NCBI GenBank assembly: GCA_023138875.1
Contig: JAGLOO010000005.1
Location: 1 to 63,658 of the forward strand
Source: Bacteroidales bacterium
GTDB taxonomy: Bacteria > Bacteroidota > Bacteroidia > Bacteroidales > GCA-2748055
DNA length: 63,658 bases
Reading direction: 5' to 3'
Within the stretch, counting starts at the first letter, position 1; each line of letters starts with the position of its first letter. Both the position numbers and the translations under genes were made by a program. The notes below the pieces were generated by a model. That model saw only the letters and a list, made by a program, of their open reading frames with translations. It ran no database searches and had not been told where the DNA came from. This document shows positions 3,867 through 58,639 of this stretch, piece after piece.

Positions 3867-4562
3867 TTAACCTTTCCGGGAAATCGCATGAAGTCGGGTG
3901 TAGTCAAGGATCTCAATGGTACGCCCCTCCAGAACGATGATGCTGTCCCTTTCAAATTCCTTCAGGATCCTGATGGCGCTGTCTTTGGACAAGCTAGTAT
4001 AATCGGCAATATCCTGACGGGAGATATCTTTTCCAATAATATTGGATTCATAGATTTCTTCAGAGAGATAGATAAGCGCATCAGCAATCCTGCCATGCAT
4101 CTGTTTGTGACTCAGACTAACCATTCGTTCCAAGGACCGGCTGTAATTCCCGCTACATAGCTGTATGTACATGCCTGAAAATGTGCTATTCAATGCAAGC
4201 ACTTTCATGAAATTTTCAGTGTCTAAAAAGCAAACCAGTGTTTCCTGTACTGCAACCACACTATACCGGAGCTTGCCGTCCAGATGTACACCAGGACCTC
4301 CTATAAGACTCCAGGGTTTTTCAAAATCCAGGATCAGGTTTCGGTTATTGTAACCTTCAATGTACTTCTTAGCAAATCCCTCGATAATGGATATGAAATT
4401 ATTGGTCTGGGTACCCTGCTTGAGAATTATTTCTCCTTCATGAAAACGAACTGAATAGCGGTCCGTATTAACTATTTTCAATTCATCCTCTGTCAGGGTC
4501 TGAAACATGGGTGATTTCCGGTTGCATTTTTCACACCCAACACATAATTCCTGCACATTCAT
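3867..4562 (-). CDS. Crp/Fnr-family regulator with an FNR-like N-terminal cysteine cluster
   Basis: The 231-residue protein has an N-terminal cyclic-nucleotide-binding-type beta-barrel (about 20-130), a dimerisation helix and a C-terminal helix-turn-helix (about 178-200, 'ISRQDIADYTSLSKDSAIR'). Cysteines at 7, 10 and 13 (C-x2-C-x2-C) plus C111 resemble the four ligands of the oxygen-labile [4Fe-4S] cluster of E. coli FNR, though the spacing differs. The recognition helix ends in an acidic residue and an arginine, as in FNR and CRP. A perfect TTGAT-N4-ATCAA palindrome is centred about 55 bp upstream of the start, which suggests autoregulation. The gene is divergent from the cytochrome operon at 4760 and precedes the phosphatase gene in an operon. 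Redox sensing is inferred. Confidence 0.85.
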   Translation of the reverse strand: MNVQELCVGCEKCNRKSPMFQTLTEDELKIVNTDRYSVRFHEGEIILKQGTQTNNFISIIEGFAKKYIEGYNNRNLILDFEKPWSLIGGPGVHLDGKLRYSVVAVQETLVCFLDTENFMKVLALNSTFSGMYIQLCSGNYSRSLERMVSLSHKQMHGRIADALIYLSEEIYESNIIGKDISRQDIADYTSLSKDSAIRILKEFERDSIIVLEGRTIEILDYTRLHAISRKG

Positions 4563-4759: not shown

Positions 4760-5119
4760 ATGAGAAGAGTGACATTTTTCTTGACAGGCGTGCTGATCAT
4801 TGTCCTGTCAGGGTGCTCCAAGTATGAAATCCCAAAGCCTGAGCTTCCTGAGGATATTCCAACAGACGTGAGTTATTCTGCGGATATCCAGCCCATCTTT
4901 GATGCCAAATGCGTCAACTGTCACAGTGGGGCAAATGATCCCGACCTGACGGCCGACTGGTCCTATGACGAGCTCATTGATGGCGATTATGTAGACACAG
5001 ATGATCCTTTATCAAGTGTTCTCTACGAGATATTTTCAGGAACACATGACGGTCGCGCAACAGAAGAAGAGGTTTTGTACATCCTTGGCTGGATCGTTGA
5101 GGGAGCCGAAAACAATTGA
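4760..5119 (+). CDS. Monohaem cytochrome c lipoprotein
   Basis: The 119-residue protein carries a lipoprotein signal peptide (lipobox LSGC, cysteine at about 19) and one haem motif, CVNCH, in the context 'YSADIQPIFDAKCVNCHSG'. This context is typical of small cytochrome c domains that begin with 'IQPIF...C'. It should be a lipid-anchored periplasmic electron shuttle. It is the first gene of a run transcribed in one direction with the DUF5777 barrel (22 bp later), the heptahaem cytochrome and cytochrome b. A perfect FNR-type box lies 137 bp upstream. Short monohaem proteins of this type are often found beside DUF5777 proteins in Bacteroidota. Confidence 0.85.
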   Translation: MRRVTFFLTGVLIIVLSGCSKYEIPKPELPEDIPTDVSYSADIQPIFDAKCVNCHSGANDPDLTADWSYDELIDGDYVDTDDPLSSVLYEIFSGTHDGRATEEEVLYILGWIVEGAENN

Positions 5120-5141
5120 CCTTAAGTAAAAACTTTTAGCT

Positions 5142-5990
5142 ATGAAACGAAATATCATTTTTACTACAATCACCTGCATCATTATATTTTTATTCTCAGG
5201 AATTGTCTTCTCCCAGGAGGAGGAGGAGGACAACAGACCCATTCGTCCTCCCTTTGAAACCGTGACCCTGATCGACAATCAGACCACAGTCAATCTTGAA
5301 AAAGGAGCCTTCCTGCTGGAAATCCAGCACAGGTTCTCACAGATCAAAGAGATCGCCGACCTGTTCGGGATTTATGGCAGTGCCAACACAAGGCTGGGGC
5401 TCGGCTACGGAGTCACAGACAAAATCCAACTGGGTTTTGGTACCACCCGCGACTATATGCTGCAGGACCTGGAGTGGAAATACAGCATCCTGACCCAGAC
5501 CCGATCGGGAAGGATCCCTGTTTCCCTTTCCTATTACGGCAATACAGTGCTGGATGCCCGGGACAGTAAGTACTTCGGTCCCGAAGAGGACTACAAATTC
5601 ATCTACCGCCTTTCATACCTGAACCAACTCATCGTTTCAAGGAATTTCGGAGGCTGGGGCAGTTTTATGCTTGCGCCCACCTTTGTTTATTACAATGCAG
5701 TAAAGGAAGGATACAACAACGCCAATGCTTCTATCTACTTTGGAGGAAGGATACAGGTACTGGGAATGAACTCCATCGTATTTGAATATGACCAGCCTCT
5801 GCTCATGCCCGATGAGGAAATTTATCCGAATATGGCGCTGGGTATTGAGGTAGGAACAAGTACCCATGCATTCAGGGTATTCGTTTCCAACTACAATGCC
5901 ATTGTCAAGAACAGGAGCATCGCATTCAACGGGAACAATCCGTTCGATGGCGATTTCCAGTTTGGTTTCAATATTTCAATCAGATTCTGA
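5142..5990 (+). CDS. DUF5777-family outer-membrane beta-barrel protein
   Basis: The 282-residue protein has a cleavable signal peptide (cleavage after about 'VFSQ', residue 25). After it come alternating hydrophobic/polar strands and aromatic girdle residues ending in the C-terminal phenylalanine 'FGFNISIRF', the usual end of an outer-membrane barrel. 'VTLIDNQTTVNLEKGAFLLE' and 'GLGYGVTDKIQLGFG' are characteristic of the DUF5777 family. The function of that family is not established. Its position between a monohaem lipoprotein and a membrane-anchored heptahaem cytochrome suggests a role in moving electrons or substrates across the outer membrane, by analogy with porin-cytochrome conduits, but nothing in the sequence proves this. 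It ends 7 bp before the next start. Confidence 0.8.
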   Translation: MKRNIIFTTITCIIIFLFSGIVFSQEEEEDNRPIRPPFETVTLIDNQTTVNLEKGAFLLEIQHRFSQIKEIADLFGIYGSANTRLGLGYGVTDKIQLGFGTTRDYMLQDLEWKYSILTQTRSGRIPVSLSYYGNTVLDARDSKYFGPEEDYKFIYRLSYLNQLIVSRNFGGWGSFMLAPTFVYYNAVKEGYNNANASIYFGGRIQVLGMNSIVFEYDQPLLMPDEEIYPNMALGIEVGTSTHAFRVFVSNYNAIVKNRSIAFNGNNPFDGDFQFGFNISIRF

Positions 5991-5997
5991 TCCAACT

Positions 5998-6966
5998 ATG
6001 AGAATCTATCGATACTTAATTCCAGGACTTTTCTTATTCGCAGGATTTCTATTGTTTGCACAGGATGCTGAGGGAGACAAATTAAAACCTCACTACCATG
6101 AGGTCAACGCCTATGTGGAAGAGAATGAAAGCTGCCTGAAGTGCCATGGGGAGGTAAAATATACCCTCGAAGACACCCTGTACGGGAGGACTGTTACCCA
6201 GGCCATGTGGTCCAACCTGATCCTGGACCGGGATGCATACTACTCCGGCGTACACCGCTCTTTCATGTGCACAGATTGCCATTCCAGTGAGTTTGAGGAA
6301 TTCCCCCACTCCCTTGATGTCAGAATGGAAGAGAACTTTGGATGCATCGATTGCCATGGATATGATGAAACTTTCGCCGATTACCATTTCGAAGAGATCG
6401 AGGTGGAATTCACGGAAAGCATTCACAACATGGAAGGATTCTCCTGCTGGAAATGTCATGATCCTCATGCTTACAAACCAAACATGCGGGGTACTGAAAA
6501 CATAAAAGAAGCCATTCAGCTCAACAACAGTGTGTGTCTGGATTGTCATGGTAATTTCGACAATTTCATGTTGTTCACCGACAAGGAGGAGATCAATGTG
6601 GTGGAAAGCCATAACTGGCTGCCTAATCAGGTTGCACACATTCGATCAGTCAGATGCATCGAATGTCACACTGAAGTCAACGACTCCATACTGATAGCCC
6701 ATAAGATCCTTCCAAAGACCGAGGCTGTGAAACGATGCACTGAATGTCATTCCAGGGACTCAAGGTTGATGCATAGCCTCTACAAATTCCAAAGCAAGGA
6801 AAATCGCCGGGGTGGATTTATGAATGGAGTGATCATCAACGACACTTATGTCATCGGGGCCAATCAGAATATTTTCCTGAATCGATTGAGTATTGCTATT
6901 TTTGCACTCGCTTTTCTGGTTATAGTTTTCCATACCATTTTACGAATCATCAAGTTACGCAACTAA
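5998..6966 (+). CDS. Heptahaem cytochrome c with C-terminal membrane anchor
   Basis: The start is taken at the ATG at 5998, which gives a signal peptide (residues 1-22, ending 'LLFAQ'). A longer frame beginning at 5866 lies inside the upstream gene. The 322-residue protein has seven CxxCH motifs: cysteines at about 46, 91, 116, 150, 180, 220 and 247, with further histidines available as distal ligands. A single transmembrane helix (about 288-314) is followed by basic residues, so the haems face the periplasm. The stop is one base from the start of the cytochrome b gene. The pair therefore probably forms a quinol-oxidising cytochrome b/c module that passes electrons to periplasmic or outer-membrane cytochromes. 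Confidence 0.88.
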   Translation: MRIYRYLIPGLFLFAGFLLFAQDAEGDKLKPHYHEVNAYVEENESCLKCHGEVKYTLEDTLYGRTVTQAMWSNLILDRDAYYSGVHRSFMCTDCHSSEFEEFPHSLDVRMEENFGCIDCHGYDETFADYHFEEIEVEFTESIHNMEGFSCWKCHDPHAYKPNMRGTENIKEAIQLNNSVCLDCHGNFDNFMLFTDKEEINVVESHNWLPNQVAHIRSVRCIECHTEVNDSILIAHKILPKTEAVKRCTECHSRDSRLMHSLYKFQSKENRRGGFMNGVIINDTYVIGANQNIFLNRLSIAIFALAFLVIVFHTILRIIKLRN

Positions 6967-6967
6967 A

Positions 6968-7591
6968 ATGACAAAGAGATTATATCTATACCCCGTATGG
7001 GTACGATTGTGGCACCTCCTTAATGCAGTGAGTTTCCTATTACTGGTTCTGACTGGTATTAGTCTGCATTTCATAACATCTGAAGGGAACAGCCTCATCA
7101 GGTTTGATATCTCAGTGGTAATCCATAACGTTGCCGCCATCATACTTACTTTTAATTACGGCTATTTTGTTATCGGGAACATTGTTTCCAATAATGGGAA
7201 ACACTATAAAAACTGGAGAAAGAACCTGGCCGCAAATCTCTGGAAGCAGGGCATGTATTATGCTGTTGGGATCTTTAAAAAAGAGTCTCATCCTTTCCCT
7301 GTAACCGAGGATAATAAATTCAATCCCCTGCAGAAGATCTCCTATGTACTGGCCATGTATCTGGGGATGCCTCTGCTAATCATCTCAGGACTGGGGCTGC
7401 TTTTCCCGGAAACTATTGCATATACAGTTTTTAACGTAAGTGGGCTTGTGCTGACCGCTATGTTGCATATCACCATGGGATTCATTCTGTCCCTGTTTTT
7501 ATTGATCCACCTGTATACATGTACCCTGGGTGAAAAACCGCTTACCCTTTTCAAAGGGATGATTAAGGGATATCACGACTCACACGATTGA
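6968..7591 (+). CDS. Integral-membrane cytochrome b (b561/hydrogenase-type cytochrome b family)
   Basis: The 207-residue protein has four to five hydrophobic helices and begins 'YPVWVRLWHLLNAVSF', the usual opening of di-haem cytochrome b subunits. Candidate haem-ligand histidines are H16, H34, H53, H167 and H181 in or near helices. Relatives serve as the quinone-reacting membrane subunit of formate dehydrogenases, hydrogenases and thiosulfate or tetrathionate reductases. Here the partner is the heptahaem protein encoded immediately upstream, with no catalytic molybdopterin or NiFe subunit nearby. Quinol oxidation at the cytoplasmic membrane is inferred. The gene ends the cytochrome operon; a strong bidirectional hairpin follows. 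Confidence 0.85.
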   Translation: MTKRLYLYPVWVRLWHLLNAVSFLLLVLTGISLHFITSEGNSLIRFDISVVIHNVAAIILTFNYGYFVIGNIVSNNGKHYKNWRKNLAANLWKQGMYYAVGIFKKESHPFPVTEDNKFNPLQKISYVLAMYLGMPLLIISGLGLLFPETIAYTVFNVSGLVLTAMLHITMGFILSLFLLIHLYTCTLGEKPLTLFKGMIKGYHDSHD

Positions 7592-7604
7592 TTTTATAAA
7601 ACTT

Positions 7605-7640
7605 AAAAGGAGGCTGCCCCTTTTGAGACAGCCTCCTTTT
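7605..7640. terminator. Bidirectional rho-independent terminator
   Basis: A perfect 12-bp stem (AAAAGGAGGCTG at 7605-7616 and its complement at 7629-7640) with a 12-nt loop has an A tract on one side and a T tract on the other. It lies between the convergent cytochrome b and rhodanese genes and can serve both. Confidence 0.9.
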
Positions 7641-7660
7641 TACTTTTGAGTTTCAGGAAT

Positions 7661-8644
7661 CTAGTTTGATGATACGTAATCGTATCCCATAATCGCATCT
7701 GTACTCCACTTGGACTTGGTCATGTCGTCGTAGATCATGCCATTGGTACCAAACAACAGTGATTTTGCATCATAACCAATTACACGCAGATAGGCAGCCA
7801 GGTTGGCACTATTCTGACCAGTATAGCAATATACCACAACCGGCTTGTCAGTAGACAGGGTCTTCAGATCAGCTGAAAGAGCAATGCTCTCTTTAGGAGT
7901 ATACTGGATAACACCGGGAATATGTCCTGGATCGGTATACTCAGCAGCTGGCCAATAGTTAATGATGTAATACTTATCCAGATCATCAAATACTGCAGTT
8001 TTGGTAATCTTGGCTGCTGCAAATCCATCGGCGAGAACTGTAGCCATACGGGATTCCAGGATCTCCTGACCGGTCTTTTTTCCTGTAGATAATGAGGGAA
8101 GGTCTCCGACAGCGCCCTTATCTGTGGCATCCGAGGTGAACTGAGTAGAGTACATGTTGCTGGTATTGCTGTTCCATTTTCCTGCAAAATCAGCATGCCA
8201 GGAACACATTCCAAACTTCATGGAGTACACCTTCTCATACCCCATGAGTCTCAGCAGGCTGGTGGCCCAACCTGCAGTCTGGCCGGTATAACACACAATG
8301 GATACTTCGTCGTAACCCGACAGATCAATTCCTTCGATATGTGAGAGTACATCTCCTGAAGCCACATTCACAGCGTCTTCAATATGTCCTGTTGCAAAAT
8401 CAGTAGCAGAACGGATATCCATGATATACACTTTGTCAAGGACATTGAGAGAATGTACATGCGCGGCTGTTTTAATAGCAGGCATATCGGTGTTCACGTA
8501 ATACTTGCCTGCTGGGGAATCAACGGATTCAAGGTATTCAACCAGGACTTTAGCTTCATTAATCGGATCTTCTTCCTTATCGCAGGATACTACAAAAAAG
8601 GAAATAACCAGGATGGTTAACATCCAGATTCTTGTCTTTGTCAT
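7661..8644 (-). CDS. Double-rhodanese-domain lipoprotein
   Basis: The ATG at 8644 is preferred because it gives a standard lipoprotein signal peptide (MTKTRIWML... lipobox VVSC). An in-frame ATG at 8671 would add nine residues. Two rhodanese (sulfurtransferase) domains follow. Each keeps an active-site cysteine loop with the same sequence, CYTGQ (CYTGQTA and CYTGQNS), and each has a 'Y.. DIR/NYWP' region and a 'GHI' turn. Both active-site cysteines are present, so both domains may bind persulfide. The gene lies 51 bp downstream of the decahaem cytochrome gene in the same direction, so a link between sulfane-sulfur handling and cytochrome electron transfer is suggested. The protein should face the periplasm or the outer-membrane surface. 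Confidence 0.85.
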   Translation of the reverse strand: MTKTRIWMLTILVISFFVVSCDKEEDPINEAKVLVEYLESVDSPAGKYYVNTDMPAIKTAAHVHSLNVLDKVYIMDIRSATDFATGHIEDAVNVASGDVLSHIEGIDLSGYDEVSIVCYTGQTAGWATSLLRLMGYEKVYSMKFGMCSWHADFAGKWNSNTSNMYSTQFTSDATDKGAVGDLPSLSTGKKTGQEILESRMATVLADGFAAAKITKTAVFDDLDKYYIINYWPAAEYTDPGHIPGVIQYTPKESIALSADLKTLSTDKPVVVYCYTGQNSANLAAYLRVIGYDAKSLLFGTNGMIYDDMTKSKWSTDAIMGYDYVSSN

Positions 8645-8695
8645 AATTGTGATATTTGTTTGGTTTAACATTTATTTTTATTGTGGGGGATTTAA

Positions 8696-10042
8696 TTATT
8701 TCGTCCAGTACAAGGGCAGTTCACCATCAACAGCAATGTGACCTGTGGCGCCAATTTCCCATTCAAGCAAATCGGCCTGCCATAGGTACAGATCCTTGTT
8801 AATCAACGAATCACCTTCCTTGCGGATGTGGCAACTTAAGTAGCAATTACCCTCAACCTCGGTTCTTTCCGTCCATCTGAGTATATTATGAGGGGAGGTG
8901 AAATTATATGTGGGATGAACATCAAAATTGGCGTACTCATCAACACCATATTTTTCCCAGTTATCGGGAGCAGCAAGGGTTCTGCGAACCAGTACAAAAC
9001 CATAACCCTCTTTAATATCCGGTATGGGATTGAGGGCGATCTTGAAATCCATGTAAGCGGGAATCCTCGCCCCATCCCCGTGAATGTGACAACTGCCGCA
9101 GTTGTTATAATCCTGTGAATGACAAACCTGACAATTGAAATCGCTATAATGAAACGTATGATAGTCATTGGATGACTCCAGTCCGGTATGGCAATTCTCA
9201 CACTCGGGCAGTTCAGTGTATGCATAGCGTTGATCCACCGGTTTGCCATCCCCGTGCAGTTCGTGTCCATCGTGACAGACAATGCAATCCCACCCCATTT
9301 CTGTCAGGTGCACATCCGGTTTTGTTCCTGATGCAACACCCAGGTAAGCATGTCCGCCCCTGGAAGTATGACAGGTTATGCATACATTCAGCATATCAGG
9401 GGTCTTGTTAAAATTATGTCCCTTGGACAGGCCGCCGCCACCAATGGCCGGGCGAACCACATGGCAATTACCACAGGTACCATGACAAATAGCACAGTTG
9501 TTGTTATACCCTTCAATCTGGTGGGCCGGAAGCTGGTCAAATTCATCTGCCCCGCTCAATCCACTGCGCATGGCCACCTTCCTTTTTTGACCTGTACCAT
9601 TATGCAGGCTGGTTAAAAAATTGTCCGTTACTTCCTGATGGCACATGCCGCACTTCTCTTCATAAAATATTGAAGGAGAAGATATCCAATCACCGGAATG
9701 GGCCAGATCTTTTTCGCCGGTATCGCCATTTCCATCATGGCATCCCGTACACCCGATTCCATAATGCCCGGATGACTTGAAAGAATCATACCCTGTACCA
9801 CCCAGATACACCCGGTCGTAGGGTTCAAAATGTGGAGCCTCCCCTCCACATCCTCCAGCCGGTGGAGCGGTATCCGGTGAATGTACTTCTATCAATCTCG
9901 CATAATCTGTATGGCATCCTTCACAGGAATTTGCTTTTATCTTCCCACTGTCTTTACCGGGGATGGTATAGCTGGTACATCCGGCAAAAATCCATGCGGC
10001 AACCAGGCATACTGTTATCAATCTTGGCCCTCTCTTTATCAT
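8696..10042 (-). CDS. Multihaem (10-11 haem) cytochrome c lipoprotein
   Basis: The 448-residue protein has a lipobox (FAGC, C22) and ten CxxCH motifs, with cysteines at about 40, 98, 131, 183, 190, 221, 253, 281, 304 and 315. It also has one CxxxCH motif (C400-x3-C404-H405). Two motifs, CAICH and CGNCH, are separated by only two residues (GT), as in tightly packed haem stacks. There is no catalytic domain that I recognise, so it may be a wire or a terminal reductase of unknown substrate. It is transcribed divergently from the second Crp/Fnr gene and followed by the double-rhodanese lipoprotein. Lipid anchoring suggests an outer-membrane location, facing either side. Confidence 0.88.
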   Translation of the reverse strand: MIKRGPRLITVCLVAAWIFAGCTSYTIPGKDSGKIKANSCEGCHTDYARLIEVHSPDTAPPAGGCGGEAPHFEPYDRVYLGGTGYDSFKSSGHYGIGCTGCHDGNGDTGEKDLAHSGDWISSPSIFYEEKCGMCHQEVTDNFLTSLHNGTGQKRKVAMRSGLSGADEFDQLPAHQIEGYNNNCAICHGTCGNCHVVRPAIGGGGLSKGHNFNKTPDMLNVCITCHTSRGGHAYLGVASGTKPDVHLTEMGWDCIVCHDGHELHGDGKPVDQRYAYTELPECENCHTGLESSNDYHTFHYSDFNCQVCHSQDYNNCGSCHIHGDGARIPAYMDFKIALNPIPDIKEGYGFVLVRRTLAAPDNWEKYGVDEYANFDVHPTYNFTSPHNILRWTERTEVEGNCYLSCHIRKEGDSLINKDLYLWQADLLEWEIGATGHIAVDGELPLYWTK

Positions 10043-10129
10043 GAATGAAGCATTCTTTACAAATTATTCTTATACGTATTTTTCAAGTCCGGTGGACACC
10101 TTTTTTAAATAATCCTGCATCTCTTTTTC

Positions 10130-10154
10130 CTTCCGGAATTACCAGTTCCGGAAG
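10130..10154. repeat. Inverted repeat in the divergent cytochrome/regulator gap
   Basis: A perfect 9-bp inverted repeat (CTTCCGGAA at 10130-10138, TTCCGGAAG at 10146-10154) with a 7-nt spacer lies 88 bp upstream of the decahaem lipoprotein start. It has no T tract, so an operator or a 5'-leader hairpin is likelier than a terminator. The rest of the 10043-10316 gap shows nothing else except the FNR-like site. Confidence 0.6.
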
Positions 10155-10254
10155 CATTCAACAATGCCGTAAAGTTTGCTCATTTGGGTGAAAACCCAAA
10201 ACAAATCAAACTGTTATTAAAACCCAATCGGGGTGATCTGAACCTGTTATAAAG

Positions 10255-10268
10255 CTGATCCATATCAG
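10255..10268. promoter_or_regulatory. FNR-like operator CTGAT-CCAT-ATCAG
   Basis: CTGATCCATATCAG is a perfect palindrome in its arms and differs from the FNR consensus by one base per half-site. Its centre is 55-56 bp upstream of the ATG of the second crp/fnr gene. The perfect box at 4610-4623 is at the same distance from the first crp/fnr gene. The matching spacing supports a shared autoregulatory arrangement. Confidence 0.6.
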
Positions 10269-10316
10269 TCTTTTTTATGATTCTTTTGTATATTTAAATT
10301 TTTAAATGATATTACT

Positions 10317-11012
10317 ATGGAACAGGCCATGCGATTTACAGGATGTACTTTGAGTATGCATCAATGCAGGTGTTTCGAAAAACTAAACCCCGAAGAGCGC
10401 GACTACCTCGATGCCAACTCGGTGTGGATCAAGTACAAAAAAGGGGAGATGCTATGCAAACAGGGTAGTTTTGTATCCCATGTCATATATGTGGAAAAAG
10501 GTTTGGCCAAAGTATTCCTTGATAATGGGGTTAACTCGCTGGTATTAAGGATTATTCCGGATGGTAATTTCCTGGGGTTGGCTTCGGTCTCGGAAGAACA
10601 AACCACCTACCCGTATTCCAGCATGGCCTATGTCGATTCTGATATCCGTCAGGTCGACATTAATACATTCAGACAGCTGATAAAACAGAATACTGCCTTT
10701 GCAAAGGAAGTGATCAATATATTAAGTGCCAATAGTGTGCAGATATACGGCAGATTTTTTTGCCTGACATACAAACAGGCATTTGGCCGCCTGGCCGATA
10801 TTCTCATCTGTCTTGCAGACCGGATCTTTAAAAACAATGAATTTGATTTGCCGCTAACCCGTAAGGAACTCGGGGAACTGGCAGGAATGAGTGCCGAAAC
10901 TGTAATCCGGATGCTCAAGGAATTCAATGAAGAAGGCTTAATCAACATGAACGGCAAGTCCATCGAAATACTCGATTATGACCGCCTGAAAAAGATCAGT
11001 GAAACAGGGTAA
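10317..11012 (+). CDS. Second Crp/Fnr-family regulator
   Basis: The 231-residue protein is a paralogue of the regulator at 3867-4562. It has an N-terminal cNMP-type barrel, a long dimer helix and a C-terminal helix-turn-helix ('LTRKELGELAGMSAETVIRMLKEF'). The recognition helix ETVIR keeps the glutamate and arginine that contact DNA in CRP and FNR. N-terminal cysteines at 10, 17 and 19 are spaced differently from FNR, so a [4Fe-4S] cluster is less certain than in the paralogue. Both proteins end with an 'IEILDYDRL'-like motif. It lies between the decahaem and hexahaem lipoprotein genes, which are on the other strand, and its own promoter region carries an FNR-like box. It is probably a local regulator of the cytochrome genes. 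Confidence 0.85.
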   Translation: MEQAMRFTGCTLSMHQCRCFEKLNPEERDYLDANSVWIKYKKGEMLCKQGSFVSHVIYVEKGLAKVFLDNGVNSLVLRIIPDGNFLGLASVSEEQTTYPYSSMAYVDSDIRQVDINTFRQLIKQNTAFAKEVINILSANSVQIYGRFFCLTYKQAFGRLADILICLADRIFKNNEFDLPLTRKELGELAGMSAETVIRMLKEFNEEGLINMNGKSIEILDYDRLKKISETG

Positions 11013-11090
11013 CCAACCGGTGAAGGATATCCTGGCGTACAAAAGAAGACAGTCCCAAACTACATGATGAGACGGCCTCTTTTTCAATTT

Positions 11091-12155
11091 CTAGTTGAAT
11101 ACACTTATGGAATTATTCAGAAGCGCCTTGGTATATGCAGGATTGTGAATTCCTGTACTGGCATCTTCTTCTACCAAAAGAAAGTTCCAGAGTGCACCAA
11201 CCGAGTCTGCCTGGTAAGACACATCCTCAATAGCATGTCCGTCCTCATCAAGCATATTGGCTGCTTTCAAAGCTGCTTCAAGATCGGCCAACAATCCCTC
11301 AATCTCGGTCACGCCACCATGGACATCAAAATCAGTAGCATCTGAATGGCAACTGGTACAGGCTTCAATACCCACAGTCCAGCTATGACCACCGGTATCT
11401 GTTCCGCCTGCATGCATATGACAGCTAACGCAATCAGCTCCTGATTGATGCGCACCTTTTACAGAGAGATCGCTTCTAAATTCATATCCTCCAAGTCCAT
11501 TGATAAAATTGGCCTGTGGTCCATGATGTGGTCCGTAATGAGAATGAACATAAACAATGGCGGTGCCATCTGTATCATCAGCCGGGTTTGTTCTTGCCTG
11601 ATGACAATTCATACAGAGGTTCGATTCACTGTTACTAAACTCAACTTTTGCTCCACCAGCAATTAAAACCACAGGGGCAGTGGTCCTTATGGCAGCGTTG
11701 CTTTCATTCTCAAAATCCAGTGATGAATGGAAGTCATGGCAGGTCTTGCAAGCAACAGGTTGTGGTAATGGGATAGCTGCAGCGATTGTGTCCAATCCAG
11801 TCCATACCGTCTGTACAAAACCTTCATGAGAATGACACTTTGCACAATCGATCCTTCCACCTGCATACTCAACAGTTGTGGGACTACCAGGATAAAACGT
11901 CTGGCTTGTAGCATGCAGAGTCTTCTCATACTGTGCAGTTACAGCACCTTTCACTGCGGTATTATGACAGGTAAGACACACCGCATTACCTGCGACACCG
12001 TCGGTACCATCAGTACCATCTATACCATCCTGTCCATCCTGTCCATCCAGACCCGGAGGGCCAACTGGTCCTTCACAACTACTCAGGAACACTGCACCTG
12101 CAATAAGCAGTGCGAATCCTCCTAAAACGGTTACGATTGAAATATTCTTTTTCAT
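11091..12155 (-). CDS. Hexahaem cytochrome c lipoprotein with a collagen-like G-x-y segment
   Basis: The 354-residue protein has a lipoprotein signal peptide (LSSC, C27). Nine consecutive G-x-y triplets follow immediately (about 29-55, GPVGPPGLDGQDGQDG onward), and then six CxxCH motifs (CLTCH, CAKCH, CKTCH, CMNCH, CVSCH, CTSCH). The C-terminal 80 residues lack haem motifs and contain a predicted helix 'EGLLADLEAALKAANML' and an asparagine-rich end. Collagen-like stalks form triple helices, so the cytochrome may be a trimer held away from the membrane; this is inference. An FNR-like palindrome lies 8-21 bp before the ATG. It probably belongs to the same respiratory system as the other multihaem lipoproteins. 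Confidence 0.85.
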   Translation of the reverse strand: MKKNISIVTVLGGFALLIAGAVFLSSCEGPVGPPGLDGQDGQDGIDGTDGTDGVAGNAVCLTCHNTAVKGAVTAQYEKTLHATSQTFYPGSPTTVEYAGGRIDCAKCHSHEGFVQTVWTGLDTIAAAIPLPQPVACKTCHDFHSSLDFENESNAAIRTTAPVVLIAGGAKVEFSNSESNLCMNCHQARTNPADDTDGTAIVYVHSHYGPHHGPQANFINGLGGYEFRSDLSVKGAHQSGADCVSCHMHAGGTDTGGHSWTVGIEACTSCHSDATDFDVHGGVTEIEGLLADLEAALKAANMLDEDGHAIEDVSYQADSVGALWNFLLVEEDASTGIHNPAYTKALLNNSISVFN

Positions 12156-12510
12156 AGCTAATGTGATTTATATCAAAGATATCTCTGTCAGTTTTATTGT
12201 TCTAAGATTCACAATAGACATATATACTGGTTTTCAGGACTATACGCAGGCATTTCATCGATATATATCGATCCGAGAACCGCTTTAGGCCTGCTGGCGC
12301 GCCTTTCCTGAACCATAGAACATTCATCTTTAATAATTTGTCCGAAATTTGGATATGTGAAGGAGAAGATCGAATGGCTCAAAATGCCCTGTTAATAAAG
12401 GAGGAATATATTCTTCAACACGTCAGATTTTAAGGTGCACTAACTTTTTTCCAAATATTTCATGCCCGATTCAGATAATAGTCTTTACTTGATTTAAAAT
12501 TGTAAAGAAC
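12156..12510. other. Intergenic region with a perfect 16-bp palindrome
   Basis: No coding frame is supported in this 355-bp gap between two divergent genes. It contains the FNR-like site at 12163-12176 and a perfect A+T-rich palindrome, ATCGATATATATCGAT, at 12257-12272. It is likely to hold the promoters of both flanking genes. Confidence 0.6.
12163..12176. promoter_or_regulatory. FNR-like operator GTGAT-TTAT-ATCAA
   Basis: One half-site is perfect (ATCAA) and the other has one mismatch (GTGAT for TTGAT). It lies only 8-21 bp upstream of the hexahaem lipoprotein start, closer than at the crp/fnr genes. If functional it would fit repression or a very short leader better than classical activation. 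Confidence 0.4.
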
Positions 12511-14223
12511 ATGAGGTTGTACCTGTTCCAGGCCCTGGTTACGACATTGCTTTTCATGGCGGGATGCGACACGAAAGAGACCATTGTTAAGATTGCTGTG
12601 ACCACCGATGTTCACGGGATGATATTCCCTTATGATTTCATCAAGCGGGAACAATCTGACCATTCCCTCGCCCATATACATAATTATGTATCTAAACAGA
12701 GGGTACTGGAAGATACGCTCTTTTTCCTGCTTGACAACGGAGATTTCCTTCAGGGTCAGCCCACGGTTTATTATTACAACTTCATCGATGCTGCTTCCTC
12801 ACATATTTCGGCCCGGGTCATGAATTACATGGGATATGATGCCGGTACGGTCGGCAACCATGACATTGAAGCCGGACCAGGCGTTTATGATCAGATCAGA
12901 GAGTCGTTCAATTTCCCCTGGCTTGCAGCCAATGCCGTACATGCGGATTCTGAAGAACCCTATTTTGAACCCTATACGATCCTGAAAGCAGGAGGGAAAA
13001 AGATTGCCATCCTGGGCCTGATTACCCCTGGCATTCCCGGCTGGCTATCTAAAAACCTCTGGCCGGAGATGGAATTCAGGGACATGGTGGAAACTGCACA
13101 ACAATGGATACCTATTATATATAAAAGAGAGGATCCGGACCTGGTGGTTGGGCTTTTCCATTCCGGCACCGATGCGGGGTATGGGGGCAATGATAAAAGC
13201 TATCTGAATGACAATGCGGTCTTGCTTGTGGCTGAAAACGTTCCCGGATTCGATGTGATCTTTGCGGGCCACGACCACCGGGTATCCAATCAATGGATCA
13301 TCAATAATACCGGAGACAGTGTGCTGGTAGTAGATCCGGGGAGCCACGCGCGGTATGCAGGGGAAGTGACCATTGCATTCGGGAAAGATGGAGCGAAGGA
13401 GATCACCGGAGATATCATTTCCATGAAAGAATTCGCCCCTTCAGTTGAATTTCTCGATCATTTTAAGGAGGACTATAATAAAGTTTCAGAATACCTGGCG
13501 GACACCATCACCTGGCTCGCTGAAAACATGGCCGGACTGGATGCCTTGTTTGGACCCTCCACCATGATATCGTTGATACACCGGGTTCAGCTGGACCTTT
13601 CCGGGGCAGACATTTCATTCACCTCTCCCCTTTCACTCTCAGCGGTGTTGAAAGAAGGACCGGTCCTGGTTTCCGACATGTTCAAACTGTACCGGTTCGA
13701 GAACATGCTTTACAGGATGGAACTCACTGGAAAGGAGATTGAACAGTACCTGGAATATGCGGCCGGGATCTGGTTCAATACCATGACAGGATCCGGTGAT
13801 CACCTGTTGCTGTTCCGAACCGGTCAGAAGGACAGGGGACACCTTGCTAATCCATACTACAATTTTTCCACCGCGGCTGGTATTGATTATACCATCGATG
13901 TAAGTCATCCTCCCGGACAAAGGGTAACAATCACAGGATTTTCCGACGGGTCTCCCTTTGCAACAACAGAGTACTACCAGGTGGCCATCAATTCCTACCG
14001 TGGGAATGGGGGAGGTGGACACCTTACGTCAGGAGCTGGTATCGCCAGGGAAAACCTTTCAGGACGAATCACCTGGTCTACAGACCTTGATCTTCGGTAT
14101 TACCTCATGGACCACCTGGCTGAGAATGACACCCTCCATCCGGAGTTGATGGATAACTGGTATTGTTTGCCCGGGAAGTGGGTGGAGGATGCCTCCATAT
14201 CAGACCGGAAAATCATTAATTGA
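12511..14223 (+). CDS. 5'-nucleotidase / 2',3'-cyclic phosphodiesterase-like lipoprotein
   Basis: The 570-residue protein has a lipobox (MAGC) near residue 19. It has a metallophosphoesterase domain with the motifs TTDVHG, DNGDFLQG, GNHDIE, HSGTD and FAGHDH (all metal ligands present), and then a 5'-nucleotidase C-terminal substrate-binding domain ('YRFENMLYRMELTGKEIEQYLEYAA', 'YQVAINSYRGNGGGGH'). This is the UshA/CpdB architecture: hydrolysis of nucleoside monophosphates or 2',3'-cyclic nucleotides in the periplasm, for phosphate and nucleoside salvage. The GHDH motif is intact, in contrast with the T9SS phosphatase at 1945-3864. The gene stands alone, and substrate choice within the family cannot be read from sequence. 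Confidence 0.9.
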   Translation: MRLYLFQALVTTLLFMAGCDTKETIVKIAVTTDVHGMIFPYDFIKREQSDHSLAHIHNYVSKQRVLEDTLFFLLDNGDFLQGQPTVYYYNFIDAASSHISARVMNYMGYDAGTVGNHDIEAGPGVYDQIRESFNFPWLAANAVHADSEEPYFEPYTILKAGGKKIAILGLITPGIPGWLSKNLWPEMEFRDMVETAQQWIPIIYKREDPDLVVGLFHSGTDAGYGGNDKSYLNDNAVLLVAENVPGFDVIFAGHDHRVSNQWIINNTGDSVLVVDPGSHARYAGEVTIAFGKDGAKEITGDIISMKEFAPSVEFLDHFKEDYNKVSEYLADTITWLAENMAGLDALFGPSTMISLIHRVQLDLSGADISFTSPLSLSAVLKEGPVLVSDMFKLYRFENMLYRMELTGKEIEQYLEYAAGIWFNTMTGSGDHLLLFRTGQKDRGHLANPYYNFSTAAGIDYTIDVSHPPGQRVTITGFSDGSPFATTEYYQVAINSYRGNGGGGHLTSGAGIARENLSGRITWSTDLDLRYYLMDHLAENDTLHPELMDNWYCLPGKWVEDASISDRKIIN

Positions 14224-14335
14224 ACCAGGGCATTCTTAAATTGATATTTATTTATAGTTTTGCAACCATGATTATTAGACCTTCAAAACTTTTTTTACCT
14301 TGATGGGTCTTATCATAACCAATGCAATTTAACCT

Positions 14336-15895
14336 ATGGATGTTAAAGGAAGAAACTTTGCCCGATTCCTTGATAGGCAACAGGTGTATGATAATCAACA
14401 CGATGCCGGGGCAGCAGGAAAACAGCATGCAAAGGGTAAACTGACCGCCTGGGAAAGACTCGATATCCTTTTTGACGAAGACACCTTTGAAGAGATAGAC
14501 GCCTATGTCACTGCCGACCGCACCGATACCGGTTTTGGCAAGGTGAAACAGGCCTTCGGGGATGGTGTGAACATCGGACACGGGTTAATTCGGGGACGGC
14601 TTGTCTTTGCCTATGCCCAGGATTTTACCGTAATGGGTGGTTCCCTGGGTTCGGTCCATGCGGCAAAGATTATGAAGATCCAGGATATGGCCCTGAAGAT
14701 GGGTGCTCCCATGATTGGTCTGATAGACTCCGGAGGAGCCCGCATCCAGGAAGGGGTGGCCAGCCTGGCCGGATATGCCGGGATCTTTTACCGCAATGTC
14801 CAGTCTTCAGGAGTCATTCCACAGATCTCGGTGATCCTGGGACCCGCCGCAGGCGGAGCCGTTTACTCCCCCGCCATTACTGATTTTGTATTCATGACCA
14901 ACCAGACCAGCTATATGTTTGTTACTGGTCCAAACGTTGTGAAGGAAGTTTTGAACGAAGATGTCACATTCAATGATCTGGGTGGTGCCGGTATCCATTC
15001 CAAAAAAAGCGGTGTGGCACATATGGTTCATGAGGACGAAGAAAACACCCTGCTGGGTGTTCGCCAGATCCTCTCGTACCTCCCATCCAACAACATGGAA
15101 AATCCTCCCGAAATGGAGCTTTCAGAAGATGAAACGAAAGATATGGAGGAGAAACTAAGGGATATTGTTCCCGATGATGCCAACAAACCTTACGATGTGA
15201 AGGAAGTGATCAACCTGCTGGTGGATAAACGCTCCTTTTACGAAATCTCGGAAAATTACGCCCAGAACCTGGTGATCGGTTTTGCCAGACTGAATGGGAA
15301 AGTAATCGGGATCGTGGCCAACCAGCCCAAGGTACTGGCCGGAACACTGGACATCAATTCATCCACCAAAGGAGCACGTTTTATCAGGTTCTGCGATGCT
15401 TTCAATGTGTCGCTGCTGATCCTTGAGGATGTGCCTGGTTTCCTTCCGGGAATCGACCAGGAGCATGACGGGATCATCCGACATGGAGCCAAAATGCTCT
15501 ATGCCTTTGCCGATTCCACTGTTCCCAGGATCACTGTAATCCTTCGCAAGTCTTATGGAGGTGCTTATTGCGTGATGAACAGCAAAAACCTGGGGGGTGA
15601 TTTCAACTTTGCCTGGCCCACTGCCGAAATCGCAGTGATGGGTCCCGAAGGAGCTGTAGCCATAATTTACAGGAAAGAATTGGAGGCTTCCGAAGATCCG
15701 GTGGCCATGAAGAAAGAACTTGTTGCCAGGTATCGAACCGAGATCGCCAATCCCTATATTGCCGATGAAAGGGGATTTATTGACGAGGTCATTGATCCTG
15801 CTTTCACAAGGCAAAAGCTGATCCGGGCCTTTGAAGCACTGGAAAATAAATTCATGAACAACCCTGCCAGGAAACATGGCAACATTCCGCTTTGA
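14336..15895 (+). CDS. Acyl-CoA (propionyl-CoA) carboxylase carboxyltransferase subunit
   Basis: The 519-residue protein has the crotonase-like fold halves of the carboxyl_trans family. Motifs include 'MIGLIDSGGARIQEGV', 'GPAAGGAVYSPAITDF', 'FVTGPNV' and 'GGAYCVMNSK', matching PccB and the methylmalonyl-CoA decarboxylase alpha subunit (MmdA). It transfers the carboxyl group between carboxybiotin and an acyl-CoA, probably propionyl-CoA. A biotin carboxylase follows after 9 bp and a biotin carrier after that, and no membrane decarboxylase subunit is present. A carboxylase is therefore favoured over a sodium-pumping decarboxylase. A -7-like box (TAGTTTTG at 14255-14262) lies upstream without a clear -33 element. 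Confidence 0.9.
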   Translation: MDVKGRNFARFLDRQQVYDNQHDAGAAGKQHAKGKLTAWERLDILFDEDTFEEIDAYVTADRTDTGFGKVKQAFGDGVNIGHGLIRGRLVFAYAQDFTVMGGSLGSVHAAKIMKIQDMALKMGAPMIGLIDSGGARIQEGVASLAGYAGIFYRNVQSSGVIPQISVILGPAAGGAVYSPAITDFVFMTNQTSYMFVTGPNVVKEVLNEDVTFNDLGGAGIHSKKSGVAHMVHEDEENTLLGVRQILSYLPSNNMENPPEMELSEDETKDMEEKLRDIVPDDANKPYDVKEVINLLVDKRSFYEISENYAQNLVIGFARLNGKVIGIVANQPKVLAGTLDINSSTKGARFIRFCDAFNVSLLILEDVPGFLPGIDQEHDGIIRHGAKMLYAFADSTVPRITVILRKSYGGAYCVMNSKNLGGDFNFAWPTAEIAVMGPEGAVAIIYRKELEASEDPVAMKKELVARYRTEIANPYIADERGFIDEVIDPAFTRQKLIRAFEALENKFMNNPARKHGNIPL

Positions 15896-15904
15896 TTTTC
15901 TAAT

Positions 15905-17404
15905 ATGAAGATTAATAGTATACTCATAGCCAACCGTGGCGAAATAGCCATCCGCATCATCCGGACCGCAAAAAAAATGGGAATCAGGTCGTATGCAATT
16001 AAAACATCCAAAGAACCCAATGCGTGGTACCTGGAAGAAGCCGACGAGATCATCGATTTCTCAGAATGCTTTGACGACACTCCCGAGTTCCTTGACATCG
16101 AACGGATCATCTATAATGCAAAAGAGCATAAGGTAGACGCCATTCATCCCGGCTACGGATTTCTCGCAGAGAATCCCGATTTTGCCAGGCGGTGTGAAGA
16201 GGAAGATATCGTTTTCATCGGACCGTCGCACGATGCCATCTACCGCATGGGAAATAAAACCATCGCCAAGGAACTGGCAAAGAAAAACAAAGTACCACTG
16301 CTGGGAGGCAGTAAGGGTACTGTGGCCGATCCGGAGGAGGCAAAGCAAATCGCCGACCAGGTGGGGTACCCGGTGATCCTTAAAGCAGCTGCCGGAGGTG
16401 GTGGTCGCGGCATGCGTGTGGTTGAAAAGGAAAAAGACATTGAACGCATGTTCAACCTGGCTACCAATGAGGCTGAAAAAGCCTTTAACAACCCTGCTGT
16501 ATTCATTGAAAAGTTTGTCCGGGAACCAAGGCATATTGAATTCCAGATCCTGGGAGATAAGCATGGTAACGTGGTTCACCTGGGTGAACGGGAATGTTCA
16601 ATCCAGAGGAAACACCAGAAACTCCTGGAAGAATCCCCTTCACCTGCCCTTGATCCTGCTCTGAGAAAGAAAATGGGTGATGCCGCCATACGCATTGCAA
16701 AATCTGTGAACTATTTCTCTGCAGGCACCGTTGAATTCCTTCTGGATGATCAGAACTACTTCTCATTCATGGAGATGAATACACGAATCCAGGTGGAACA
16801 TCCAGTCACTGAAATGGTTACAGGGATTGATCTGATCGAGCAAATGATCCTGATCGCCGAGGGGAAAAAGCTCCCCTTCTCCCAGGATGACATTAAACTG
16901 AACGGTTGGGCCATCGAGTGGCGGATCAATGCCGAAGATGTGCAATCGGGATTTTCTCCCAGCCTGGGTACGATCGAAAAGATCTCCTGGCCCGAAAGTG
17001 ACCACATCAGGGTGGACACAGGCGTTAGGGATGGTTCTGTGATCACCCCCTATTACGATTCAATGATTGCCAAGCTGATCATCCACGCCGAAACCCGTGA
17101 AAAAGCCCTTCAACAATCGAGCATTGCCATCCGGAAGTTCTGGATCAAAGGAACCAAAACTACCCTGGCCTTTTGCAGAGCGGTCCTTCAGAACCGGAAT
17201 TTCAGGAAAGGTAAGTTCAATACATCATTCCTCAGCAAGGAATTAAAGATCCATTATCATCACGAACCGGACGAGGAATTGCTGGCGGCCTTTTTTGCCG
17301 CATATGATTATGCAAGGGAAGTGCATGAGCATGAAGATAAGCCACTTTACGTGGAGAAAGGCAAGGAAATTGCTCCTTGGCTGTTAAACAAACGCTTACG
17401 TTAA
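15905..17404 (+). CDS. Biotin carboxylase subunit of acyl-CoA carboxylase
   Basis: The 499-residue ATP-grasp protein carboxylates biotin with bicarbonate and ATP. Visible motifs are 'NRGEIAIRIIRTAKKMGI' at the N-terminus, the glycine-rich 'AAAGGGGRGMRVV' nucleotide loop, 'EKFVREPRHIEFQILGD', 'GERECSIQRKHQKLLEESP' and 'EMNTRIQVEHPVTE'. It is about 50 residues longer at the C-terminus than AccC of fatty-acid synthesis, as is usual for separate biotin carboxylases of propionyl- or acyl-CoA carboxylases. It is the middle gene of a three-gene operon with the carboxyltransferase and the biotin carrier. Confidence 0.92.
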   Translation: MKINSILIANRGEIAIRIIRTAKKMGIRSYAIKTSKEPNAWYLEEADEIIDFSECFDDTPEFLDIERIIYNAKEHKVDAIHPGYGFLAENPDFARRCEEEDIVFIGPSHDAIYRMGNKTIAKELAKKNKVPLLGGSKGTVADPEEAKQIADQVGYPVILKAAAGGGGRGMRVVEKEKDIERMFNLATNEAEKAFNNPAVFIEKFVREPRHIEFQILGDKHGNVVHLGERECSIQRKHQKLLEESPSPALDPALRKKMGDAAIRIAKSVNYFSAGTVEFLLDDQNYFSFMEMNTRIQVEHPVTEMVTGIDLIEQMILIAEGKKLPFSQDDIKLNGWAIEWRINAEDVQSGFSPSLGTIEKISWPESDHIRVDTGVRDGSVITPYYDSMIAKLIIHAETREKALQQSSIAIRKFWIKGTKTTLAFCRAVLQNRNFRKGKFNTSFLSKELKIHYHHEPDEELLAAFFAAYDYAREVHEHEDKPLYVEKGKEIAPWLLNKRLR

Positions 17405-17418
17405 ATCAGGTTTCTGCC

Positions 17419-17955
17419 ATGGCACGTGAAGTAAAGAAGAAGAAATCAACCAAACTTATAGCCCTGAGCTCGGCCAACAAGGCATACGAGTTCAACAAAC
17501 CCCTTGAGAAAAGCATCAAGTACCAGGGCAAAAAGGTGGATATCAAACTGAGAGAAGATCCGAATGGGTTCTCTTACATCGTATGGAAAAATAAAAAGTA
17601 CATGCTCGATGTAATCGAGAAGAACCAGAACCGGTATACCATCATGATCAACGGAGTCTGGCATTCTTTTACTGTTGAGACTCCCATCTCATTAAAGCGC
17701 CGAAGGTTCCTGGAACAACAGGGCGAATCATCATCGGTGGTTTCCATTGAAGCACCCATGCCGGGGAAGATCATCGATCTCCTGGTGGAAGAGGGCGCAG
17801 AAGTGAAGCAAGGTGAGCCCATCATCATCCTGGAAGCCATGAAAATGCAAAACGAGATATCCAGCCATGTGACAGGTGTCGTTCAGTCGATCTCCGTTAA
17901 AAAGAATGACTCGGTCATGAAGGATGATGTGCTGCTCTACATCCGGAAAGGCTAA
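17419..17955 (+). CDS. Biotin carboxyl carrier subunit of acyl-CoA carboxylase
   Basis: The ATG at 17419, 14 bp after the previous stop, is preferred; an earlier in-frame ATG at 17377 would overlap the biotin carboxylase gene. The roughly 178-residue protein has a lysine-rich N-terminus, a beta-rich linker domain and a C-terminal biotinyl domain with the canonical EAMKM motif in 'IIILEAMKMQNEIS'. The lysine is the biotinylation site. It carries carboxybiotin between the carboxylase and carboxyltransferase encoded upstream. Its stop overlaps the convergent ThpR gene by four bases. Confidence 0.92.
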   Translation: MAREVKKKKSTKLIALSSANKAYEFNKPLEKSIKYQGKKVDIKLREDPNGFSYIVWKNKKYMLDVIEKNQNRYTIMINGVWHSFTVETPISLKRRRFLEQQGESSSVVSIEAPMPGKIIDLLVEEGAEVKQGEPIIILEAMKMQNEISSHVTGVVQSISVKKNDSVMKDDVLLYIRKG

Positions 17956-49797: not shown

Positions 49798-50292
49798 TTA
49801 CAAACCGGCCGGCAAATATTCTTCAATGATCCCCTTCACATCATCCGGGGCAACCCTGCCATAGGTTTTGTCCCCCACCTGGACCACTGGCGCAAGTCCA
49901 CATGCTCCCACACAGCGCAAACAGCTGAGTGAAAACTTTCCATCCGTACGGGTTTCTCCCACTTCCATCTCCAACTGCTTCTTAAATTCATTGAGGACTG
50001 TTTCTGCGCCTCTCACGTAGCAGGCCGTACCTGTACAGATGGATATGGGGAATTCTCCCTTGGGAGTCATGCTGAAGAAGGAGTAGAACGTCACTACGCC
50101 GTAAACCTTTGCCGCTGAGATCTCCAGCTTTTCAGCAATCAATTCCTGCACTTCCGCAGGAAGGTAACCGAAAGTCTCCTGGGATTTATGCAGTACATTG
50201 ATCAATTCTCCCTCCTGGTTACCAAATGAATCACAGATGGTATGGATTTTATCTGTCTGGTCTTTTCTGAGTTCAATCTTCACACTTGACAT
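49798..50292 (-). CDS. hydC: NuoE-like [2Fe-2S] subunit of NADH-linked [FeFe] hydrogenase (HydC type)
   Basis: The 164-residue protein is a thioredoxin-like ferredoxin with the four-cysteine pattern of NuoE: 'CTGTACYVRGA' and 'CLRCVGACGLAPV', preceded by 'LPAEVQELIAEKLEI...VYGVVTFYSFFS'. In bifurcating hydrogenases HydC relays electrons between the flavin subunit and HydA. It is the last gene of the hydrogenase operon and follows hydA by 23 bp. Confidence 0.9.
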   Translation of the reverse strand: MSSVKIELRKDQTDKIHTICDSFGNQEGELINVLHKSQETFGYLPAEVQELIAEKLEISAAKVYGVVTFYSFFSMTPKGEFPISICTGTACYVRGAETVLNEFKKQLEMEVGETRTDGKFSLSCLRCVGACGLAPVVQVGDKTYGRVAPDDVKGIIEEYLPAGL

Positions 50293-50315
50293 ATTGGATC
50301 AATTTAATACTGTGT

Positions 50316-52091: not shown

Positions 52092-52102
52092 TTCTTTCAA
52101 CG

Positions 52103-57541: not shown

Positions 57542-57555
57542 TTGATATTGATCAA
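57542..57555. promoter_or_regulatory. Perfect FNR-type operator TTGAT-ATTG-ATCAA
   Basis: TTGATATTGATCAA matches TTGAT-N4-ATCAA exactly. It lies in the 119-bp gap between the LiaF-like gene (12 bp from its ATG) and the end of the PorP/SprF-like gene, so it can only control the LiaF-like/LytS/LytTR operon. Being so close to the start codon it would fit repression. This is the second perfect copy in the window. Confidence 0.55.
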
Positions 57556-58624: not shown

Positions 58625-58639
58625 TAAATCTTCCTTTTA

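Follow-up and report, generated by a model that had tools for sequence, protein, structure and literature searches.

Two neighbouring cytochrome gene modules in a Bacteroidales genome, one pairing an 11-haem lipoprotein with a double rhodanese and possibly acting on sulfane sulfur

Between positions 4760 and 12155 of a 63,658-nucleotide stretch of DNA from a Bacteroidales bacterium (contig JAGLOO010000005.1 of assembly GCA_023138875.1; the whole stretch is termed the window here) lie genes for a cytochrome b, a heptahaem cytochrome, monohaem, hexahaem and 11-haem lipoproteins, a DUF5777 outer-membrane barrel and a two-domain rhodanese lipoprotein. This assortment raises the question of whether they constitute a single electron-transfer system, and of what such a system might reduce. 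The original prediction, drawn from the window alone, took them for one quinol-to-outer-membrane conduit under FNR-type control, with DUF5777 in place of an MtrB-type porin and the rhodanese as a hint of sulfur chemistry. Profile matches and motif counts bear out all the genes and haem counts at their coordinates, and the quinol link, the FNR-type control, the sulfur connection of the rhodanese and the placing of the 11-haem protein outside the known reductase families have held; the single system, the porin substitute and the surface cytochromes have not. When the same gene set was sought in other Bacteroidota genomes, each part proved to be conserved, as two modules rather than one. The stretch is two separate gene sets, neighbours by chance, namely an inner-membrane electron-transfer operon (module 1) and a two-gene 11-haem/rhodanese unit (module 2); both sets are conserved in related genomes and each is therefore more than a chance assembly. 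The explanation we favour, which seems to us about equally likely to be right or wrong, is that these are two anaerobic modules, possibly cooperating, of which module 2 is a redox system for sulfane sulfur (thiosulfate, polysulfide or tetrathionate).

The 11-haem lipoprotein and its double-rhodanese partner

Module 2 comprises two genes:

7661..8671, minus strand: double-rhodanese lipoprotein; PF00581 at 85.2 bits over two stretches; export signal C-D-K-E-E-D
8696..10042, minus strand: 11-haem lipoprotein; ten CXXCH and one CX3CH, lipobox; candidate sulfane-sulfur oxidoreductase

The ten CXXCH motifs together with the one CX3CH in the 10042-8696 protein give it 11 haem sites. Gene neighbourhoods were examined for the best 80 of 160 matches to this protein in named genomes, all 80 of them metagenome-assembled genomes (MAGs) by title; two loci in which no 11-haem gene was called (L131 and L151) were dropped, leaving 78. 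The double rhodanese directly follows the 11-haem gene at all 73 loci with sequence downstream, with a median gap of 46 bp between the two genes, and four more loci end at a contig edge; this count leaves out one contig-cut locus with 8 haems (L187), where a rhodanese is also next. The hosts of the pair range from Bacteroidales to Ignavibacteria and Kapabacteria. No description of it was found in a literature search on rhodanese and multihaem proteins in a limited paper collection. At one locus (L189:1229-8375) genes for a 16-haem protein, a 4-haem protein, a 425-residue protein with no Pfam match, a 14-haem protein and a 10+2-haem protein stand in a row upstream of the pair, and this row may represent a cytochrome-barrel cluster.

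Conservation was assessed in a set of 91 rows containing the window's own sequence twice, hence 90 distinct full-length sequences, not all independent; eight contig-cut 11-haem hits of fewer than 400 residues and three short rhodanese hits were left out, and a filter for at least nine CXXCH motifs removed none that were longer. All haem-binding cysteines and histidines are conserved across the 90 distinct 11-haem sequences, with a 10+1 haem pattern in 89 and a 9+2 pattern in the other. Beyond the haem motifs, ten histidines, one fewer than the haems, are invariant, as are K111, K334, R159, R197, R228, R272 and R353, while 89 of the 90 sequences retain C65. This density of conserved residues beyond those needed for haem binding suggests, at the level of sequence, that the protein is an enzyme rather than a wire. 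The partner contains two PF00581 domains with an active-site cysteine in each, and its cysteines C127 and C282 are kept in 90/90 rows.

With respect to known families, the 11-haem protein passes just the generic Cytochrome_C7 Pfam model (26.3 versus 24.8 bits) and no NCBIfam cut-off; against the octahaem tetrathionate reductase model TIGR04315 (cut-off 375 bits) it scores 15.2 bits and its relatives 18 to 23 bits. Homology to that reductase was considered on the strength of an hhalign match (96% over 75 columns) and rejected: the likeness is not discriminating, because the hexahaem and heptahaem alignments score alike (97% and 94%, respectively).

An indication of sulfur metabolism comes from two loci in related MAGs, L168 and L170, whose label SulCav we read as sulfidic cave. 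At L168 the pair follows, all on one strand, a MarR-like gene (recognised by eye), an octahaem tetrathionate reductase homologue (TIGR04315, 558 bits), a cytochrome b and two sulfur-transport proteins matching PF04143, of which one has a rhodanese domain of its own; sequence clustering places the same gene row at L170. No match to octahaem tetrathionate reductase was found in the genome that contains the window. A known parallel is the sulfur reducer Dethiobacter alkaliphilus, for which extracts of PMC10376724 describe gene clusters shared by octahaem Otr/MccA-like cytochromes and rhodaneses, and propose that they reduce sulfur or thiosulfate without Dsr or molybdoenzymes. Both there and in the window a multihaem cytochrome gene lies near rhodanese genes; unlike the Dethiobacter Otr/MccA proteins as presented in those extracts, the window protein has 11 haem sites including one CX3CH, is a lipoprotein, falls far below the TIGR04315 cut-off and belongs to Bacteroidota, and its rhodanese is a two-domain lipoprotein in a fixed gene pair. 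The ExtHIJKL cluster of Geobacter, in the extract of PMC6148476, likewise encodes a rhodanese lipoprotein (ExtH) with a multihaem cytochrome, whereas module 2 comes without its own barrel and with 11 haem sites.

The location of the two proteins can be approached through the surface-export signal of Bacteroidota lipoproteins, C-X-K-(D/E)2 (PMC5080379, extract). The window rhodanese fits it exactly and the window 11-haem protein lacks it. The signal is present in 29/68 rhodanese lipoproteins versus 2/77 of the remaining lipoproteins encoded at these loci (Fisher p 1e-9), in 5/60 members of the 11-haem family, and in none of 13 hexahaem or 21 monohaem lipoproteins. The double rhodanese is thus probably surface-exposed, and, as the signal is on the window rhodanese and not on the window 11-haem protein, they may be attached to opposite sides of the outer membrane. 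The absence of the signal from the hexahaem and monohaem lipoproteins makes an outer-membrane wire unlikely and tells against the surface location first envisaged for the cytochromes, whereas the rhodanese family often carries it.

The heptahaem-cytochrome b operon, its regulators and its neighbours

Module 1 comprises the following genes:

4760..5119, plus strand: monohaem lipoprotein; one CXXCH, lipobox LSGC
5142..5990, plus strand: DUF5777 outer-membrane beta-barrel; PF19089 at 214 bits, cut-off 23.1
5998..6966, plus strand: heptahaem cytochrome c, CbcA-like part; seven CXXCH, hydrophobic helices at the N- and C-terminus
6968..7591, plus strand: cytochrome b subunit, b561-type, of the PhsC/HydC/FdnI type; PF01292 at 81.8 bits, PRK15006 at 172.9 bits, below its cut-off of 204

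Gene maps of 40 stretches from related genomes were examined besides those of the named loci, and the counts for this module cover 25 loci with a 7-haem gene; the open reading frames (ORFs) were called with a simple in-house caller that in the window chose an incorrect antisense ORF instead of the heptahaem gene and in one other stretch (L215) missed a multihaem gene. Cytochrome b is next to the heptahaem gene at 22/25 loci (one of the others is a contig edge and two have a 14-haem gene instead), DUF5777 is encoded at most two genes upstream at 24/25 (the remaining one being a contig edge), a monohaem gene lies within four genes upstream at 22/25, an FNR-type regulator upstream at 17/25, and a hexahaem gene nearby at 9/25. 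Strong heptahaem matches occur in 28/61 genomes, own included, and in 7 of the 33 genomes sampled from the order's other families; 11-haem matches occur in 2 of them.

As in CbcBA-type systems, a membrane-anchored multihaem cytochrome c and a PF01292 cytochrome b are here adjacent or fused, the fusion being seen at L213, where the heptahaem part and cytochrome b form a single 554-residue protein, like CbcL. At L052 two further genes lie downstream of the module-1 pair, one for an FeS protein bearing a Tat-like signal, the other for an NrfD-type membrane protein. The layout of the pair, the fusion and these downstream genes support a quinol oxidoreductase, and the pair has the look of a CbcBA- or CbcL-like menaquinol oxidoreductase; its layout is that of Geobacter CbcBA. 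In Geobacter CbcBA and CbcL, as covered by extracts of PMC6148476, PMC12307469 and PMC12977616, a quinol-oxidising b-type cytochrome is similarly paired or fused with a multihaem c part; module 1 differs in adding the DUF5777 barrel and a monohaem lipoprotein, and is likened to them by layout, not by sequence. Longer versions of the heptahaem pair exist at L214 and L216, where a 13-haem cytochrome is directly followed by the same type of cytochrome b. In several relatives (L047:11152-13953; also L043, L044, L055 and L076) a 19-haem protein of about 933 residues adjoins module 1, that of L047 bearing a C-terminal cytochrome b561-type domain in the manner of CbcL; a search for this partner in the window's own genome matched just the cytochrome b region of the window itself.

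The DUF5777 barrel is not a specific conduit part, a role for which it was considered and rejected. The family is widespread, being found in 115/296 sampled Bacteroidota genomes (own included), of which only two have a strong heptahaem match, and elsewhere small monohaem ORFs are frequent neighbours: 20 of the 30 best-scoring loci have one no more than 1.5 kb away, a YceI protein is present at the one locus tested, and no 7-haem ORF was found within the 1.5-kb flanks at these 30 loci. Thus the monohaem-DUF5777 genes of other Bacteroidota share the barrel family with the window but not the 7-haem neighbour. An AlphaFold2 model of the barrel (pLDDT 86.4) has 12 strands, and Foldseek matches it to FapF, NanC, OmpG and COG4313 channels, all weakly (query TM-scores of about 0.5 or less), with no MtrB or PioB among the 50 best matches. 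The MtrB/PioB barrel model (PF11854) has no match in the own genome, and of the window proteins the heptahaem and hexahaem cytochromes reach only 38.8 and 22.4 bits against the DmsE/MtrA decahaem model TIGR03508 (cut-off 192.2), the 11-haem protein not being listed. No paper on DUF5777 was found in the same limited paper collection.

Both Crp/Fnr regulators and the FNR-type boxes around the gene set are present as first described:

3867..4562, minus strand: FNR-type Crp-family regulator, divergent from module 1; PF13545 and PF00027
4610..4623, no strand assigned: FNR-type box TTGATATAGATCAA, 10/10 consensus bases, between this regulator and module 1
10317..11012, plus strand: Crp-family regulator, divergent from module 2; PF13545 at 65 bits
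62 bases before 10317: FNR-type box CTGATCCATATCAG, 8/10 consensus bases
12163..12176, no strand assigned: FNR-type box GTGATTTATATCAA, 9/10 consensus bases, upstream of the hexahaem gene

The first regulator has four FNR-like cysteines (putative [4Fe-4S] binding): C7, C10, C13 and C111, which would be the ligands of an FNR-type cluster, are present in 13/13 aligned sequences more than 40% identical, own included. Together with the 10/10 box before module 1, this upholds FNR-type control. The only other 10/10 site in the window is at 57542, and there are four further 9/10 sites. The box before 10317 is weak evidence by itself because 276/981 control upstreams also reach 8/10. Boxes of 9-10/10 are found upstream of 18/78 11-haem genes versus 39/981 other upstreams (relatedness uncorrected), in contrast to positions inside operons (2/79 rhodanese and 0/30 heptahaem genes). 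A member of the second regulator's family lies near the 11-haem gene at 58/78 loci; in an alignment of 59 members of this family, 95 to 100% retain C10, C19, C149 and C165, which is not the classical FNR arrangement.

The remaining cytochrome gene lies beyond the second regulator:

11091..12155, minus strand: hexahaem lipoprotein with collagen-like spacer; six CXXCH; NrfA/OcwA superfamily

Its profile matches PDB entries 6i5b (E 6.4e-15), which we take to be OcwA, the octahaem nitrite reductase 8rv0 (E 1.5e-11) and NrfA 1oah (E 5.7e-10), and by these profile matches it is a member of the NrfA/OcwA multihaem superfamily; in other families, too, a gene of this kind is found close to module 1. 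All six motifs are CXXCH, the CXXCK active-site motif being absent, and NrfA PF02335 gives 17 bits, below the cut-off of 24.1. A PF22113 match (40.5 bits, cut-off 30) was dropped as a sign of an MtrC-like surface protein, since 4-haem and 19-haem neighbours match this model too. OcwA of Thermincola potens, for which an extract of PMC6703420 gives an NrfA-family fold, is the best PDB profile match; the window protein differs from it in having six haem motifs rather than nine, a collagen-like spacer after the lipid cysteine and a Gram-negative host.

Further along the window, 5'-nucleotidase-like and acyl-CoA-carboxylase-like genes (the latter recognised by eye) occupy 12511-17955 and recur beside cytochrome modules at L042, L049, L051, L053 and L054, which suggests a conserved position. 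Genes for an NAD-linked [FeFe] hydrogenase, possibly electron-bifurcating, are found at 49798-53593, with a NuoE-like ORF (49798-50292, by eye), a PF02906/PF02256 large subunit (50316-52100) and a NuoF-like subunit (52103-53593). Finally, at 57650-63502, a PorP/SprF gene (57650-58624) adjoins a 1620-residue ORF of many similar repeats that ends in a gliding-motility-like C-terminal domain (by eye).

Linkage of the modules and competing readings

The two modules are linked by genome and mostly apart in position. Among the own genome and its relatives, the heptahaem protein is present in 18/18 genomes with the 11-haem protein versus 10/43 without it (p 1e-8, relatedness uncorrected), counting as absent an 11-haem match of 20 bits (G020) and a heptahaem match of 23 bits (G013). 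In an even sample of the phylum minus the own genome, where 11-haem matches below 500 bits and heptahaem matches below 100 bits were counted as absent, the corresponding figures are 4/15 and 0/280 (p 4e-6, relatedness again uncorrected).

In the sulfane-sulfur reading, which builds on the genes and haem sites observed, on the pairing and conservation of the two module-2 genes, on export signals, on co-occurrence with module 1 by genome and on the two loci with sulfur genes, module 1 (5998-7591, with 4760-5990) would pass electrons under FNR-type control from menaquinol through cytochrome b and the heptahaem cytochrome to periplasmic cytochromes. In module 2 (7661-10042) the double rhodanese, probably on the surface, would take the outer sulfur of thiosulfate, polysulfide or tetrathionate as a cysteine persulfide, and the 11-haem lipoprotein would pass electrons to the rhodanese-bound sulfur, most likely releasing sulfide, with module 1 possibly feeding module 2. 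The substrate, the reductive direction, the topology, the electron path from module 1 and the meeting of the rhodanese with the 11-haem protein across the outer membrane are all features that we infer. A bolder form of this proposal, which we advance only tentatively, is that the 11-haem lipoprotein represents a new, molybdenum-free class of sulfane-sulfur reductase with odd active-site haem ligation, working with a surface double rhodanese that would extract sulfur from external polysulfide, S0 or thiosulfate; the eleventh haem, left without an invariant histidine, may then use the invariant lysines or C65. Several observations weigh against an explanation along these lines. Sulfur genes were recognised beside the pair at just L168 and L170 of the 78 loci, the other neighbours not having been Pfam-scanned, and the 11-haem protein is no more like octahaem tetrathionate reductase than it is like the hexahaem and heptahaem families, its AlphaFold model (pLDDT 33.8) being unusable for fold comparison. 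The own genome encodes a PhsA/PsrA-like molybdoenzyme (463 bits, cut-off 694) that could itself reduce thiosulfate or polysulfide, and no box of at least 9/10 precedes 60 of the 78 11-haem genes. As to cooperation, a module-1 gene occurs in the stretch at only 6/78 11-haem loci, and at 2 of the 33 loci flanked on each side by 9 kb or more, which tells against the single system first proposed; the module neighbourhood of the window is therefore mainly local to its relatives. Moreover, 11/16 phylum-sample genomes with module 2 have no strong heptahaem match, and the four heptahaem matches in that sample are one fused 7-haem protein, two 13-haem proteins beside cytochrome b and one protein with cytochrome b alone called.

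Other readings give the same genes different roles. An outer-membrane conduit, running from module 1 through DUF5777 to surface lipoprotein cytochromes that reduce metals, humics or another cell, is unlikely, although it draws on several parallels: the heptahaem-cytochrome b pair is similar to CbcBA of Geobacter, and such quinone oxidoreductases are described as good markers of extracellular electron transfer (PMC12977616, extract); an extract of PMC8258643 describes a Zoogloea MAG in which b-type and 7-CXXCH cytochromes accompany an MtrB/PioB homologue, as well as a Bacteroidetes MAG from the same current-producing enrichment in which an uncharacterised cluster combines six multihaem genes with a barrel. 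The best profile match of the hexahaem protein to the surface reductase OcwA and the 19-haem CbcL-like genes adjoining module 1 in several relatives point the same way; the 12-strand model of DUF5777 and its occurrence mostly in genomes without the heptahaem protein, the lack of both MtrB/PioB and a 19-haem protein in the own genome, and the missing export signal in the hexahaem and monohaem families point the other. Decidedly unlikely, in our estimate, is an oxidative direction, with sulfide or thiosulfate converted to sulfane sulfur that the rhodanese carries off while electrons enter the quinone pool. TsdA and SoxXA have His/Cys haems, of which the conserved extra cysteine is reminiscent, and some host MAG names hint at sulfidic or stratified sites; against this, the FNR-type boxes and regulator suggest anaerobic respiration.

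There is a slim chance that the pair serves to reduce a metalloid oxyanion (selenite, tellurite or arsenate) or to detoxify reactive species, its rhodanese handling selenium or protecting thiols. Deletion of extI impairs selenite and tellurite reduction in Geobacter, where the first gene of the cluster, extH, encodes a rhodanese lipoprotein (PMC6148476, extract), whereas the sulfur-transport genes and octahaem homologue beside the pair at L168 speak for sulfur. Equally improbable, to our mind, is a nitrite, hydroxylamine or sulfite reductase chain formed by the hexahaem protein and module 1 and functionally unconnected to module 2: the superfamily membership of the hexahaem protein and its repeated proximity to module 1 would fit such a chain, but its lack of CXXCK, its sub-threshold NrfA score and the one separate NrfA of the own genome do not.

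The gene pairing, the invariant residues and the export signal offer directly testable predictions. Should the 11-haem lipoprotein indeed be a new reductase, uncultured anoxic Bacteroidota would gain a sulfur respiration that genome surveys have missed; and a sulfur-reducing role of the pair, if borne out, would supply a marker gene by which respiration on thiosulfate, polysulfide or tetrathionate could be recognised in Bacteroidales, Ignavibacteria and Kapabacteria.

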